Made by a program: the position numbers and the translations under genes
In this document: positions 50,801 to 56,864 of the stretch, in pieces
How the letters are laid out: each line of letters begins with the position of its first letter
Position numbering within the stretch: the first letter of the stretch is position 1
The notes under the pieces: model-generated
Told to the model about the DNA's origin: nothing
The model's input: the letters and a program-made list of their open reading frames with translations, nothing else
The model's database searches: none
NCBI GenBank assembly: GCA_027028145.1
Contig: JALVJV010000018.1
Coordinates: 1 to 64,000, forward strand
DNA length: 64,000 nt
From: Archaeoglobaceae archaeon
Lineage (GTDB): Archaea > Halobacteriota > Archaeoglobi > Archaeoglobales > Archaeoglobaceae
Direction of reading: 5' to 3'

Positions 50801-52612
50801 ATGAGGAGATCGCTGATGCTGATTCTGATGCTGATGCTGGCAATTCAGACTGCTCAAGCTTGGACTTTTCACGGAAACGCGCAAAGAACCGGGAATTTCA
50901 GCGATATTGCCCCGATGACGGATCAGCTCGTTTATAAGGTTAAGATCGGCGGACTTGTGGATAGCTCGCCTATGGTTTACGACGGAAACGTTTACGTGAT
51001 AAGCTGGTATGGGCAGTGGTATGGCGAATCCTCGCATTTGGCATGCATAAACGCCACCAACGGCAGTGTGATCTGGGAAATAAAAGCGGAAGGTGCTTCA
51101 ACGCCTTGCGGTTACGACGGAAAGGTCTTCGTCGGGCTTTTGAACGGATCGCTCATGTGCGTCGATGCGAACAACGGAAGGATTATTTGGATTGAAAAGC
51201 TTGAAAGCAATCCGCAATACTGGGGTATTGCTTCATCGCCATTGGTTTATAACGATACGCTTTACGTAACGACGTTCTCAAACGGAACGCTCTGGGCTTT
51301 GAATTTAAACGGTAGCGTCAAGTGGAAGGTAACCACGGGAGGCGAGATAAGTCATTACACATCGCCTTCGGCATATAACGGTTTGATCTTCTTCGCCGGA
51401 AACGAATCCGTAAACGGAACATACGTAAACGAGCTTATATGCGCAAATGAAAGCGGTGGTATCGTTTGGAAATTCCCAGTTGATAGCCTGATTCTGAGTT
51501 CACCAGCCGTAGGATACGGAAAAGTCTTCTTTACGACGATGCACAGAATTTATGCAGTAAACATCTCAACGGGAAAAGAAGTTTGGAACGTTTCGATAAA
51601 CGGAACGATTTCAACTCCCGCTTTGGCATTCGGAGCCGTATTCGTAGGAAGTAGGGATGGGAAATTGTATTGCATAGATGCAAACAACGGAACGATCCTG
51701 TGGACCTTCCAAGCGAACGGAAAGATAGATTCATCGCCGGCAGTTGCGAACGGCGTAATATACTTCGCCACAAACACGCCCAACGGAACTATATACGCCT
51801 TATATCCGAACGGGACGTTGCTCTGGAAATACACTCTTATTCCGCCTGAGGGCAAATACTACAACATAATGTCCTCCCCATTCGTCTGGAACGGAAAGCT
51901 GTTCATAGGAGCGGACGATGGCAACCTCTACATATTCGGAATATGGAAAGGCGACGTAACGCTCGCACCGGGCAACTTTACTGTTGTTGCGGATAACGGA
52001 AAGACATACGTCGTTCCCAACATGACCGCTTTGGGAGCTTTGAACGAGGCTTCAAAGCTCGGTGGTTTCAGCTACACGGTGAACGAGACTTGGGGCGGAG
52101 GAAACCTCTACCCCACTTCGATCGGCGGGATAAGGGGAGTTTGGCGCTACGATGTAAACGGAATAACGCAAACCACGGGAACGAACAAGTATAATGTAAG
52201 CGATGGCGATACGGTAGTGTTCTGGCTCTTGACTAAGAGCGGGGATAATCCGAAAAACGCTCCGAATGAGGTGATAATTCACGTTCATGCGAAGAAGATC
52301 GTGATAAATAATCTCAGAGTTAGCGATGGGAGAAGGGGTGGGAATGCGACGGCATACGTTAACGTAACAGCTTTAAAGTCCGGCTGGTTCGTGATAGTAG
52401 TCAGCGGGACAAATGCGAACGGGGACAGCATCGCTGGGATCTCGACGGTTAAACTGAACTTCGGAGAAACGGTCAACGTTCCCGTTATAATCCCGATCCC
52501 GCAACTCGTCCAAACCGGAACATACAGACTTTACGCCGGAGTTTACGAACTCAACAATTATCCAAACGAACTTCTAACTTGGTTCGGAAGTGCGAACTGC
52601 AACGTGGGGTGA
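50801..52612 (+). CDS. Secreted PQQ-type beta-propeller with DUF4430 (transcobalamin-like) domain
   Basis: A 603-residue secreted protein. Residues 1-20 are a signal peptide ending AQA. Residues about 22-390 are repeated propeller blades with motifs such as KLYCIDANNGTILWTF and SSPAVANGVIYFAT. Residues about 395-508 form a DUF4430 domain (ALGALNEASKLGGFSYTVNET, YDVNGITQTTGTNKYNVSDGDTVVFW), a fold related to the cobalamin-binding beta domain of intrinsic factor. The rest is Ig-like. Many NGT/NGS sequons suggest N-glycosylation. No C-terminal anchor. GAGGTGG precedes the ATG. First gene of an operon ending in btuF/btuC, which points to a cobalamin or metal-cofactor capture role. Confidence 0.8.
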   Translation: MRRSLMLILMLMLAIQTAQAWTFHGNAQRTGNFSDIAPMTDQLVYKVKIGGLVDSSPMVYDGNVYVISWYGQWYGESSHLACINATNGSVIWEIKAEGASTPCGYDGKVFVGLLNGSLMCVDANNGRIIWIEKLESNPQYWGIASSPLVYNDTLYVTTFSNGTLWALNLNGSVKWKVTTGGEISHYTSPSAYNGLIFFAGNESVNGTYVNELICANESGGIVWKFPVDSLILSSPAVGYGKVFFTTMHRIYAVNISTGKEVWNVSINGTISTPALAFGAVFVGSRDGKLYCIDANNGTILWTFQANGKIDSSPAVANGVIYFATNTPNGTIYALYPNGTLLWKYTLIPPEGKYYNIMSSPFVWNGKLFIGADDGNLYIFGIWKGDVTLAPGNFTVVADNGKTYVVPNMTALGALNEASKLGGFSYTVNETWGGGNLYPTSIGGIRGVWRYDVNGITQTTGTNKYNVSDGDTVVFWLLTKSGDNPKNAPNEVIIHVHAKKIVINNLRVSDGRRGGNATAYVNVTALKSGWFVIVVSGTNANGDSIAGISTVKLNFGETVNVPVIIPIPQLVQTGTYRLYAGVYELNNYPNELLTWFGSANCNVG

Positions 52613-52616
52613 TCGC

Positions 52617-54896
52617 ATGAGAAGGCTTTTGGTTTTTCTCGTATTTTTAATCGCAATTCAGCAAGCAAATGCTCTAACTCTGAACGTTCAGGGAAACGTC
52701 GTTAATAAGCCGGTGACGGTAACAACTGATAAGCCGGCTCTTATAATATTTAGAATGAACAACGGAACTCCTATTTACGCTTACGGAACTTCGGCGAAGT
52801 TCATACCTCATATCACCGGCAAGTTGCTGATAGAAGCCATAGCCGGTGGCGAGAAGGCTGTTAAAATCGTGGAGATACGACAGCCCCCGAGTAGCGGTAG
52901 CTCAAGTGGCGGAGTTAGCTCGAACATCTATTGGCAGGGAACCGTCTATCTGCCGAACGGAACGTTCACGAAAACTGCAACCAACGGCAAGGTTTACACC
53001 ATAAGGTGGAGAACGGCTTTGGGAGCTTTGGAAAAAGCTTCCGAGATCGGAGGCTTCAGTTACACGATAAAGGAAACTCAGTGGGGGCCATTCGTAAGCT
53101 GTATAGCCGGAAAGTGCGAAGGGAGTGAAGGATCGACGTCGGGCTGGATGTATTGGGTGAACTATCCGAACGAACCCCTGCCGGGAGTTTCCGCTGATAA
53201 ATACGAGGTTCACGACGGAGATGTCGTTTACTGGTTCTTCTCGAAGAGCATGAGCGACACGCCGGATACATCGGATATGGTTATCAAGATATACGTTCAC
53301 TACACCAGCAGTAGCGCCACATCCGGTGAGAGTGGAGGCTCCATCACATCTGGCGGCAAAGAAACATTCGAGAAAACTGTGACCGTCGAAATCGGAAAGC
53401 CAAAAGAGATAGATGTAGAGAAAGCTAACGTCGTGAAAATTATTTTAAAGCCGAAGGAGAGCGGATCTTACACGGTTAAGGTTCAGAAAGCCGAACCGAA
53501 GGTTAAGCCGAGAGCCATAGCGACCTACGCCTTTTTCAACGTGACGGTAGATAAGCCGTGCGTTGCGACGATAGAGTTCGAAGTTTCGAGGAGTTGGATG
53601 GAAGATCACGGCTTCAAGCCGAACCAGATTTCTCTGCTGAAATTTGACAAGTATTGGATAGAACTTCCGACGAAGTTCTTGAAAAACGACAGCGAATACT
53701 ACTACTTCGAGTCGAACGTTAGTTCATTCAGCACTTTCGCGATCGCGGTAACGAGGTGGAGCAACTTCCCGCTGAACGTTACGGATAAGCCGATTATAAA
53801 GGCTCTTCAGTATCTCAAATCCGTCCAGCACAGCGACGGAGGATTCGGAGAGAACGAAAGCAACTTCGCCAAAACATGCTGGGTGATAATGGCTCTCGTT
53901 TCCGCAAAACAAAATCCATACAAGTGGGTTAAAGACGGAAACTCATCAGTCGATTATCTGAAGCACGAAATAAGGAAGGAGATCGACAAGATGGGAACGG
54001 CAGATCTCGCAAGAACCATACTAACGGTTATTGCTGTAGGAAAGGATCCGAGGAACTTCACCGGAATAGACCTCGTTTCGAAACTTGAGAAGAAGGTTAA
54101 GCCGAACGGACAGATCGGAGACTACATTTACACTACGATCTGGGGAATCATAGCTTTGAAAGCCTGCGGTGTGGATGTTTCGAAATCGGTTGAATGGCTC
54201 AAGATTCATCAAAATGCAGATGGCGGCTTCGGTTGGACGATAGGAGCTAAAAGCGATTACGATGATACCGCAGCGGCAATAGTCGCCTTAATTGAAGGAG
54301 GAGTTCCGAGGAACTCGAGTGTGATAAAGAGGGCGCTCGATTATCTCAAAACAGGGCAGAATGAAGACGGCGGGTTCAGATACTTCGGAAATTCGGCAAG
54401 CAACTCGGCAAGCGATTCTTGGGCTATATGGGGAATCCTCGCGAGCGGTCAGAATCCGACCGAATGGAAGAAGAACAACGTCAGCGTCGTCGATCATCTG
54501 CTAAGTCTTCAGGCTGAGGAGGGATACTTCAAGTATACGAAGTATCAGGTTTCGAATCCTTGCTACATGACGGCTTGCGCAATCATGGCTTTGCTCGGCA
54601 AGTATCCGCCGATCTATCCTTCAGGCTACGTGAACTTAACGATTCCGACTCCCAAACCCGTCCCAACGCCCACAGCCGTTCCAACACCGACTAAACCCAA
54701 GCCAACTGCCGTAACACCGACGGCAACTCCGACCGCCACAGCCACACCAAACGCCACACTATCTGTAACCCCGGTTGCCGCACCAACCAAAACGCCGACA
54801 AAGGTTACGACTAAACCGACGTTCAGGATCGACGGATTCACCGCTGTAATCGGAGTTATAGGAATAGCGATAGCTCTGGCGGTGAGGAGAACATGA
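52617..54896 (+). CDS. Membrane-anchored intrinsic-factor-like surface protein (DUF4430 plus alpha/alpha toroid)
   Basis: A 759-residue surface protein. In order: signal peptide (1-19, ending ANA); DUF4430 (about 130-228: ALGALEKASEIGGFSYTI, WMYWVNYPNEPLPGVSADKY, DGDVVYWFF); a PGF-pre-PGF-like domain (about 250-380); an alpha/alpha toroid (about 390-665) with the repeated QxxDGGF signature (HSDGGF, NADGGF, NEDGGF); a Pro/Thr stalk (676-735); one membrane helix and RRT. Toroid plus DUF4430-type domain is the makeup of intrinsic factor and transcobalamin, here in reverse order. The ATG at 52617 follows GGGGTGA. Followed by btuF, so cobalamin capture at the surface is a strong inference, not proven. 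Confidence 0.8.
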   Translation: MRRLLVFLVFLIAIQQANALTLNVQGNVVNKPVTVTTDKPALIIFRMNNGTPIYAYGTSAKFIPHITGKLLIEAIAGGEKAVKIVEIRQPPSSGSSSGGVSSNIYWQGTVYLPNGTFTKTATNGKVYTIRWRTALGALEKASEIGGFSYTIKETQWGPFVSCIAGKCEGSEGSTSGWMYWVNYPNEPLPGVSADKYEVHDGDVVYWFFSKSMSDTPDTSDMVIKIYVHYTSSSATSGESGGSITSGGKETFEKTVTVEIGKPKEIDVEKANVVKIILKPKESGSYTVKVQKAEPKVKPRAIATYAFFNVTVDKPCVATIEFEVSRSWMEDHGFKPNQISLLKFDKYWIELPTKFLKNDSEYYYFESNVSSFSTFAIAVTRWSNFPLNVTDKPIIKALQYLKSVQHSDGGFGENESNFAKTCWVIMALVSAKQNPYKWVKDGNSSVDYLKHEIRKEIDKMGTADLARTILTVIAVGKDPRNFTGIDLVSKLEKKVKPNGQIGDYIYTTIWGIIALKACGVDVSKSVEWLKIHQNADGGFGWTIGAKSDYDDTAAAIVALIEGGVPRNSSVIKRALDYLKTGQNEDGGFRYFGNSASNSASDSWAIWGILASGQNPTEWKKNNVSVVDHLLSLQAEEGYFKYTKYQVSNPCYMTACAIMALLGKYPPIYPSGYVNLTIPTPKPVPTPTAVPTPTKPKPTAVTPTATPTATATPNATLSVTPVAAPTKTPTKVTTKPTFRIDGFTAVIGVIGIAIALAVRRT

Positions 54897-55984
54897 AGAA
54901 GATACTTCTACTACTATTTTTATCGATTCTCGTAATCGGCTGTTCCGCTGTAAACCATAAAGTCCAATTCCATGCGAAAAGCGGAATCAACTACACATAC
55001 GTCAATTACTCGTATTTGAATAGGGGGATAATCGAAAAAGCCAACGAAGTGATAGTAACGGACGACTTCGGATTTAAGGTGGTCGTAAAGAAGTATCCCA
55101 AAAGAATAGTTTCGCTGGCTCCTTCGAACACAGAAATCCTCTTCGCCTTGGGCTTGGGCAATAGAGTCGTGGGAGTCACAGACTACTGCGACTATCCGCC
55201 GGAAGCCGTGAAGCTCAAAGAAGAAGGAAAGATCGAGTCGGTGGGCGGTTTCTCCACCATAAACGTTGAGAAGGTAATAGCTCTGAAACCGGATTTGGTT
55301 GTCGGAGCTTACGGAAACGGATTGGGCAACATAGAGGCGATAAAGAGATTCGGAATTCCGGTGATATGCTTCAATCCTAAAAGCTTAAGGGATGTGATGA
55401 GGGACATATGGATACTCGGAGTCGTAACCGGAACGAAAAGGAACGCTACGAGGCTCATCAGATTCATGGAGGAGAAAATCGAACACGTTGAGGAGATCGT
55501 AAGCCACGCGAAAACGAGACCGAGAGTAGTTCACATACTCTGGAACGATCCAATCTGGGTCAGCGGAAGGGGGACGTTTGTGGACGAACTCATAAGATTG
55601 GCTGGAGGAGAGAACGCGGTGAGGAAGAAGGGATGGACTGTAATAAGCAAGGAAGAGCTTCTGAGACTGAATCCGGACGTCATAATCGTGAACAGCGGAA
55701 ACGGTATGAGTCCGAAGGGTAAAAACATTTTATACGATTGGATAACGCACGACGAAGTTCTCAGACAACTCAAAGCCGTTAAGAACGGAAGGGTTTATGT
55801 TGTCGATGCGGATATAGTTTCAAGACCCTCATACAGGTTGGTATATGCGCTCGAAGAGTTTGCCAAATTCATACATCCGGAGCTATTCGAAGGTAATAAT
55901 TCCGCTGTCGATCTTAGCTCTGCTCACGCTTGCAATCTCACCGGCACTGGGCTCGGTAACGATACCACCAAAGTTTGTGGCTAA
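54893..55984 (+). CDS. btuF: Cobalamin ABC-transporter substrate-binding lipoprotein (BtuF-like)
   Basis: A 363-residue periplasmic-binding-protein (type III) with signal and lipobox LVIGC (Cys17), then the BtuF/FepB domain from about residue 50: RIVSLAPSNTEILFALGLGNRVVGVTDYCDYPPEA, ALKPDLVVG, and RPSYRLVYALEEFAKFIHPELF near the normal end. The last 29 residues (after PELFE) are read out of frame through the start of btuC and look non-native. The ATG overlaps the previous stop by four bases. Iron-siderophore binding is an alternative, but the DUF4430 neighbours favour cobalamin. Confidence 0.85.
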   Translation: MKKILLLLFLSILVIGCSAVNHKVQFHAKSGINYTYVNYSYLNRGIIEKANEVIVTDDFGFKVVVKKYPKRIVSLAPSNTEILFALGLGNRVVGVTDYCDYPPEAVKLKEEGKIESVGGFSTINVEKVIALKPDLVVGAYGNGLGNIEAIKRFGIPVICFNPKSLRDVMRDIWILGVVTGTKRNATRLIRFMEEKIEHVEEIVSHAKTRPRVVHILWNDPIWVSGRGTFVDELIRLAGGENAVRKKGWTVISKEELLRLNPDVIIVNSGNGMSPKGKNILYDWITHDEVLRQLKAVKNGRVYVVDADIVSRPSYRLVYALEEFAKFIHPELFEGNNSAVDLSSAHACNLTGTGLGNDTTKVCG

Positions 55985-56864
55985 GGCTTTCATAGATGCA
56001 ATAACAGGAAAGCGGTTAAGCTTGGACGAGAAAATAATAGTGGATCTCAGGGTTCCGAGGGTTCTCATGGCTTTCATAACGGGAATGGCTTTATCCACTG
56101 CCGGAGTTGTTATGCAGGCTATATTCAGAAATCCTTTAGCCGAACCGTTCATCTTGGGTGTCTCAGCCGGAGCGGCTGTGGGGGCGATATTGGGGATGCT
56201 GATGTTCTTCAGCGTATACGCCATCTCAATTTCGGCCTTCCTTTCATCACTGCTCGCCGTCTTTGCTGTCTACAACTTGGCAAGGGTTAAAGGCAGAATA
56301 ACTACAGAATCCCTTCTCTTAGCCGGAATAGCTGTGAACTTCTTTCTCTACGCCTTGGAGTGGCTGATGCTCATAAGGTTCAACAGGGCTCATCTCATCC
56401 TAACTTGGCTCGTCGGCTTTTTGGGAAACGTCGAATGGTTGGACGTCAAGGTAAGCATAATTCCCGTGCTCGCCGGAGTGGTTTCGATTTGGGTTTTCGC
56501 GAGGGATCTGAACGCCATGAGTTTCGGGGAGGAAACAGCCCACTACTTGGGCGTAGACGTTGCGACCGTTAGAAAGATTCTGCTCGCTGTTGCATCGCTG
56601 ATTACAGCGGTTTGCACGTCGTTTGTGGGAGTAATAGGATTCGTCGGTCTCATGATACCGCACATGCTAAGAATGCTGGTGGGAGCGGATCATCGGATCT
56701 TAATTCCGTCTTCAGCCCTCTTCGGCGGTATATTTTTGGTTTGGACGGATACCTTTGCCAGAACAATCATGAACGATTCCGTTCCGGTCGGAATAATCAC
56801 TATGCTCTGCGGAGCTCCATTCTTTATATATCTGCTTAGAAGTCGCTCGTCCTTATTTTCATAA
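55845..56864 (+). CDS. btuC: Cobalamin-type ABC transporter permease (BtuC/FecCD family)
   Basis: A 339-residue FecCD-family permease with about ten membrane helices. It shows LRVPRVLMAFITGMALSTAGVVMQAIFRNPLAEPFILGVSAGAAVGAI, and GVIGFVGLMIPHMLRMLVGADHRILIPSSALFGGIFLVWTDTFART, all typical. The ATG at 55845 lies 140 bases inside btuF, in another frame; no better start exists later except a TTG at 55860. No ATPase gene (btuD) follows: argF begins 83 bases on, under its own TATA box. Confidence 0.9.
   Translation: MRSKSLPNSYIRSYSKVIIPLSILALLTLAISPALGSVTIPPKFVAKAFIDAITGKRLSLDEKIIVDLRVPRVLMAFITGMALSTAGVVMQAIFRNPLAEPFILGVSAGAAVGAILGMLMFFSVYAISISAFLSSLLAVFAVYNLARVKGRITTESLLLAGIAVNFFLYALEWLMLIRFNRAHLILTWLVGFLGNVEWLDVKVSIIPVLAGVVSIWVFARDLNAMSFGEETAHYLGVDVATVRKILLAVASLITAVCTSFVGVIGFVGLMIPHMLRMLVGADHRILIPSSALFGGIFLVWTDTFARTIMNDSVPVGIITMLCGAPFFIYLLRSRSSLFS

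Follow-up and report, generated by a model that had tools for sequence, protein, structure and literature searches.

Human intrinsic factor, transcobalamin, and haptocorrin are secreted proteins that each combine a 12-helix alpha/alpha toroid with a beta-grasp domain of the DUF4430 type (PF14478). Transcobalamin takes up cobalamin on its beta domain before its alpha toroid closes (PMC11107200). Burroughs, Balaji, Iyer, and Aravind (2007) predicted a class of proteins in which SLBB/DUF4430 domains are combined with a toroid on either side, with propeller fusions, paired paralogous surface proteins in one operon, CbiO/CbiQ-type neighbors, and a listed Archaeoglobus member (PMC1796856). Because many archaea make B12, those authors doubted B12 as the archaeal ligand and left the question open (PMC1796856). 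Here we describe a four-gene operon in a 64,000-nucleotide (nt) stretch of DNA from a thermophilic Archaeoglobaceae archaeon (contig JALVJV010000018.1, positions 1 to 64,000; the window), which encodes two DUF4430 proteins, one of them with a toroid, followed by BtuF- and BtuC-type transport proteins. The gene set very probably makes a cell-surface trap for B12-type molecules, and the four genes are probably a corrinoid scavenging operon that couples surface capture to hand-over to BtuF/BtuCD.

The operon consists of four consecutive open reading frames (ORFs) on the + strand (50801-52612, 52617-54896, 54893-55984, and 55845-56864), with the following features.

50801..52612, + strand: P0001, with a signal peptide, a PQQ/BamB-like beta-propeller (residues ~20-385), DUF4430 (409-476), and a C-terminal domain (490-603)
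52025..52228, + strand: DUF4430 of P0001, transcobalamin beta-domain-like, without the two cysteines of the P0002 copy
52617..54896, + strand: P0002, predicted surface-anchored capture protein
53013..53243, + strand: DUF4430 of P0002, with the motif WGPFVSCIAGKC...GWMYWVN
53418..53747, + strand: PGF-pre-PGF domain (TIGR04213) of P0002, a domain known from archaeal surface proteins
53754..54611, + strand: alpha/alpha toroid of P0002, 12 helices predicted with high confidence
54255..54269, + strand: DYDDT motif of the toroid (residues 547-551), aligned to the DxDD catalytic motif of class II terpene cyclases
54618..54893, + strand: Thr/Pro-rich stalk and C-terminal transmembrane (TM) segment of P0002
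54893..55984, + strand: P0003, BtuF-type solute-binding lipoprotein, lipobox LVIGC, Cys17
55845..56864, + strand: P0004, BtuC-type FecCD permease, its start overlapping the btuF end by 140 nt

Spacings of +4, -4, and -140 nt between the genes indicate one transcription unit, and the 140-nt overlap of btuF and the P0004 gene recurs in sister genomes. ORFs and Pfam matches agree with a preliminary description of this DNA, which had proposed an operon of propeller-DUF4430, DUF4430-toroid, BtuF-type, and BtuC-type genes. The window genome (1.52 Mb) has no DUF4430 genes besides those for P0001 and P0002.

The domains of P0002 run in the order signal peptide, beta-rich N-domain, DUF4430, PGF-pre-PGF, alpha/alpha toroid, Thr/Pro stalk, and C-terminal TM helix (Pfam: DUF4430, E 8e-9; SQHop/prenyltransferase toroid, E 7e-17); the longest ORF starts further upstream, at GTG 52590. 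DUF4430 is thus N-terminal to the toroid, and the order is reversed relative to the human carriers, as had been proposed. The proposed membrane anchoring likewise fits the stalk and TM helix of P0002, and the reported repetition of DGGF was recovered as three exact copies in the toroid. The PGF-pre-PGF domain of P0002 scored 61 bits (cut-off, 28) and is present in 27 of 31 members. Most relatives of P0002 end in PGF followed by a hydrophobic helix and RR, a tail resembling a PGF-CTERM sorting signal, in which the window protein has DGF (P to D); the formal PGF-CTERM model, TIGR04126, matched just 2 of the 31.

The claim that DUF4430 resembles the C-terminal domain of transcobalamin was upheld when the P0002 domain was used as a lone query (residues 115-233) against all PDB sequences. 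Five matches were returned, all to transcobalamins (E 5e-5 to 6e-4). The P0002 sequence WGPFVSCIAGKC aligns with WGPYITCIQGLC of human transcobalamin-1 (haptocorrin). Both its Cys pair (Cys162 and Cys167) and the GW of GWMYWVN are invariant across 31 Archaeoglobales homologs. In the transcobalamin-like clade, a hairpin inserted after the helix is described as the ligand-contacting insert (PMC1796856), and our reading of the alignment would place the WGPFVSCIAGKC motif of P0002 in this hairpin.

P0001 carries a second DUF4430 (E 2e-7) behind its PQQ-type propeller (E 9e-38), and its C-terminal domain is beta-rich and beta-sandwich-like. The AlphaFold model of P0001 has a mean predicted local distance difference test (pLDDT) score of 90, with BamB and YxaL propellers as its best Foldseek matches. 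The role of P0001 is the least certain part of our reading; it may be a second receptor, a spacer, or a docking partner.

Conservation of the locus was followed through 57 Archaeoglobales genomes, 35 of which have DUF4430. Conservation of the four-gene order had been suggested as a check. The order propeller-toroid-BtuF held in 31 of the 32 loci that are not cut by a contig end and could therefore be tested (the exception is genome G054), but the position of btuC varies. The window genus (g1) and genus g4 have propeller-toroid-btuF-btuC, while 13 genomes from five genera have btuC upstream, as btuC-btuD-cbiZ-propeller(-toroid-btuF), with one of these loci ending at a contig edge. CbiZ was identified in the operon by PF01955 (E 2e-42) and is an archaeal cobinamide-salvage amidohydrolase (PMC3541065). 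In genus g4, CbiB is encoded immediately upstream of the propeller gene, and a deacetylase-like gene in opposite orientation lies between the toroid and BtuF genes. CbiZ also accompanies the operon at the level of whole genomes, being present in 32 of 35 genomes with the operon versus 11 of 22 without it (Fisher p 0.001, a value that overstates the evidence because the genomes are related).

Outside Archaeoglobales, toroid and BtuF domain form one polypeptide in 14 genomes from four other archaeal families of the phylum (loci L125, L126, L127, L129, L131-L133, L135, L137-L140, L154, and L155); five of the fusions were confirmed by Pfam. BtuF, propeller, and DUF4430 are a single protein in two genomes (L152 and L157). 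ANME-1/Methanosarcinales metagenome-assembled genomes (MAGs) have DUF4430 and toroid on two neighboring genes, with the BtuF and BtuC genes after them, and in one Methanosarcinales MAG CbiB lies near the cluster. At L139, a corrinoid adenosyltransferase (CobA/BtuR; PF02572, E 3e-64) is encoded downstream of the operon. The occurrence of fusions in several pairings argues well for a single complex in which propeller, DUF4430, toroid, and BtuF act together. The arrangement is not universal: proteins of family f5, which looks like Methanosarcinaceae, have multiple DUF4430 copies and are encoded amid propeller proteins without BtuF (L142, L144, and L153; one to five copies per protein, with neither BtuF nor toroid). 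In genome G180 (L124), propeller and toroid genes were present and BtuF was not found in the stretch read. In at least three families, toroid-BtuF clusters have as a neighbor a gene for a xylose-isomerase-like TIM barrel (PF01261; L125:2578-3306, L129:14280-15032, and L138:3202-3927). A propeller/DUF4430/toroid/BtuF cluster is also present on a contig titled Candidatus Nitrosotalea (L121), which is possibly misbinned.

P0003 is a Peripla_BP_2 protein (PF01497, E 1e-39) and P0004 a FecCD permease (E 6e-90) whose best NCBIfam model is a BtuC; the operon thus encodes both the binding protein and the permease of a BtuFCD-type importer. The top annotated solved relatives of P0003 include B12-binding proteins, and its CDYPPEA aligns with SDYPPQA of E. 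coli BtuF. No BtuD gene was found within the window operon. A full-length BtuD ortholog (47% identity over 395 amino acids) is encoded elsewhere in the window genome (G000:C21:127887-129062). The ortholog stands alone at L089:8870-10063, about 2.7 kb from genes resembling uroporphyrinogen-III methyltransferase and dsrAB.

The physiology of the window archaeon was also considered. Subunits of the corrinoid iron-sulfur protein (CFeSP) use corrinoid, and the window genome encodes them together with CbiB. CbiD and CbiC were not found in this genome, so the archaeon may need external corrinoid. A search of the genome for corrinoid enzymes with PF02310 gave only a sub-threshold match. The close sister genome G035, whose four proteins are 92-98% identical, has CbiD, CbiC, and CbiZ, and an assembly gap in the window genome is therefore possible. 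Rfam found no riboswitch in the window. Judging by gene names read from the ORFs, pyrD appears to lie upstream and divergent and argF downstream, so the operon probably ends at argF.

Both the genetic linkage with CbiZ and BtuCD and the fusion of toroid to BtuF argue for a corrinoid as the ligand. From genome context and these fusions we infer, as had been proposed, a surface complex that catches corrinoid and passes it to BtuF. P0002 would stand on the cell surface on its stalk, anchored at the C terminus. Its DUF4430 beta-grasp would bind the corrinoid first, through the Trp-Gly-x-Phe/Cys-x-x-x-x-Cys hairpin, and the toroid would then close on the other face to form a sandwich, an order proposed on the precedent of transcobalamin (PMC11107200). 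Secreted P0001 may belong to this complex as a second receptor module. The corrinoid would pass from the toroid to lipoprotein P0003, be imported by P0004 together with the unlinked BtuD, and be salvaged inside the cell through CbiB.

Several results weigh against this scheme. CbiZ, the salvage enzyme linked to the operon in relatives, was not found in the window genome. P0004 scored 304 bits against a curated BtuC cut-off of 461 and P0003 scored 110 against a BtuF cut-off of 234, although these models appear to be tuned to other lineages. In the PDB, P0003 has its single best match in a protein labeled as iron-binding. The operon does not track loss of CbiD, which is present in 24 of 35 genomes with the operon and in 12 of 22 without it; an anticorrelation of the operon with de novo synthesis was thus not seen (Fisher p 0.40). 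The toroid adds further points of this kind. Pfam found no match to PF01122, the Cobalamin_bind alpha domain, in P0002, and transcobalamin was absent among 57 PDB matches of the toroid profile to E 10, so that the toroid was rejected as a sequence homolog of the transcobalamin alpha domain. The best 50 Foldseek matches of the whole P0002 model were cyclases and complement-type proteins, with no transcobalamin or intrinsic factor among them; sequential structural alignment of a whole model cannot match both domains at once in proteins that carry them in opposite order. The intrinsic-factor-like architecture of the preliminary description therefore holds for the overall design and for the beta domain but not for the toroid, which falls outside the transcobalamin alpha-domain family.

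The transporter families leave room for a different cargo. Siderophores and haem are further cargoes of the PF01497 and FecCD families, some binders of these compounds give scores on P0003, and the window genome has a second FecCD system of unassigned substrate on contig C24. The operon might accordingly import another large metal chelate, such as haem or an iron siderophore, with DUF4430 and toroid as a general ligand-capture platform. We regard this as unlikely, given that in the PDB P0002 DUF4430 matches only transcobalamins and that the best solved relatives of P0003 include named B12-binding proteins. The preliminary description had named homologs beside non-cobalamin transporters as the finding that would speak against cobalamin; the neighbors were instead btuC, btuD, cbiZ, cbiB, and corrinoid adenosyltransferase, and no iron or haem genes were recognized in the neighborhoods inspected. 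The C24 importer itself comprises a binding protein, a permease, and an ATPase whose C-terminal extension resembles the one in BtuD proteins (G000:C24:13766-16970; L070).

The toroid also raises the question of enzymatic activity. Its Pfam family, SQHop/Prenyltrans, is that of squalene cyclases, and the nearest solved structures by sequence and fold are squalene-hopene cyclase and drimenyl diphosphate synthase. It has the DxDD motif in an alpha/alpha toroid that typifies class II terpene cyclases. Over 49 archaeal toroids, the three Asp columns of DxDDT are conserved at 98-100% and Thr at 100%, and Asp549 of P0002 aligns with the Asp mutated as D303 (D303E) in PDB 8zg0 and 8zg1. A surface enzyme of the class II terpene cyclase type, acting on a surface or membrane lipid rather than clamping a ligand, would fit this conservation. 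To our knowledge, class II terpene cyclases are intracellular; in contrast, the P0002 toroid is predicted to be surface located, on the evidence of its signal peptide and anchor. No isoprenoid genes were recognized nearby, and the fusion of toroid to BtuF in 14 genomes and its linkage to corrinoid-salvage genes also make a cyclase very unlikely. Returning to the toroid as a corrinoid clamp, its pairing with DUF4430 may share a common origin with the transcobalamins or, since the toroid lacks a sequence match to their alpha family, may have been assembled separately and so not be a homologous permutation; from sequence, both are possible. In an improbable version of the latter, the toroid descends from a class II terpene cyclase that took on corrinoid clamping independently of the animal proteins. 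Its DxDDT acid, still invariant, would then act on the ligand once bound (for example, by protonating the lower base to give the base-off form), and capture would be chemically coupled to release to a BtuF that is fused or adjacent.

A different, corrinoid-like metabolite, such as F420-0 or a precursor, is a highly improbable ligand: CbiD is present in many operon-bearing genomes, an F420-0 permease model scores on P0004, and Burroughs et al. gave their caveat on the archaeal ligand (PMC1796856), but CbiZ acts on cobinamide, the CbiZ, CbiB, and adenosyltransferase encoded in or beside the operon all process corrinoids, and P0004 scored 304 bits with the BtuC model versus 224 bits with the F420-0 permease model.

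What the present analysis adds is the linkage to CbiZ/BtuCD and the fusion of toroid and BtuF, neither of which was found in the literature searched. No later functional work on DUF4430 and cobalamin or on archaeal transcobalamin-like proteins was found in that search, which most subscription papers lay outside. For the 2007 question of whether archaeal transcobalamin-like proteins bind B12, corrinoid is now the clear first hypothesis, and BtuF is named as a physical partner. The operon bears on whether the clamp of toroid and beta-grasp arose once or repeatedly, and it offers thermophilic proteins for studying a two-domain B12 clamp.

Compared with known systems, P0002 is closest in design to the human carriers, and its beta domain is significantly similar in sequence, including the Cys pair of haptocorrin. 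It differs from them in its reversed order, in its additional beta-rich and PGF-pre-PGF domains and membrane anchor, and in having a toroid of the squalene-cyclase family. As a secreted DUF4430 protein joined to a toroid and paired with a second DUF4430 protein, it belongs to the SLBB-plus-toroid class of Burroughs et al.; in contrast to their account, its partners here are BtuF/BtuC/BtuD and CbiZ, with toroid and BtuF fused in some genomes. The importer shares its solute-binding protein, FecCD permease, and ATPase families with E. coli BtuFCD but serves a single-membrane archaeon in which a dedicated surface capture complex would replace BtuB and in which, in the window genome, BtuD is unlinked. 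Bacteroides BtuG and BtuH are likewise surface proteins, one a beta-propeller, that are encoded with a B12 transporter and pass B12 on (PMC6143338, PMC8941943). The BtuG propeller has seven blades and delivers to a TonB transporter in the outer membrane, whereas the archaeal one is of the BamB/PQQ kind and has a DUF4430 domain; the analogy is functional only. If binding proves true, Archaea possess a surface receptor for B12 whose role is like that of Bacteroides BtuG and whose parts are those of the human carriers.

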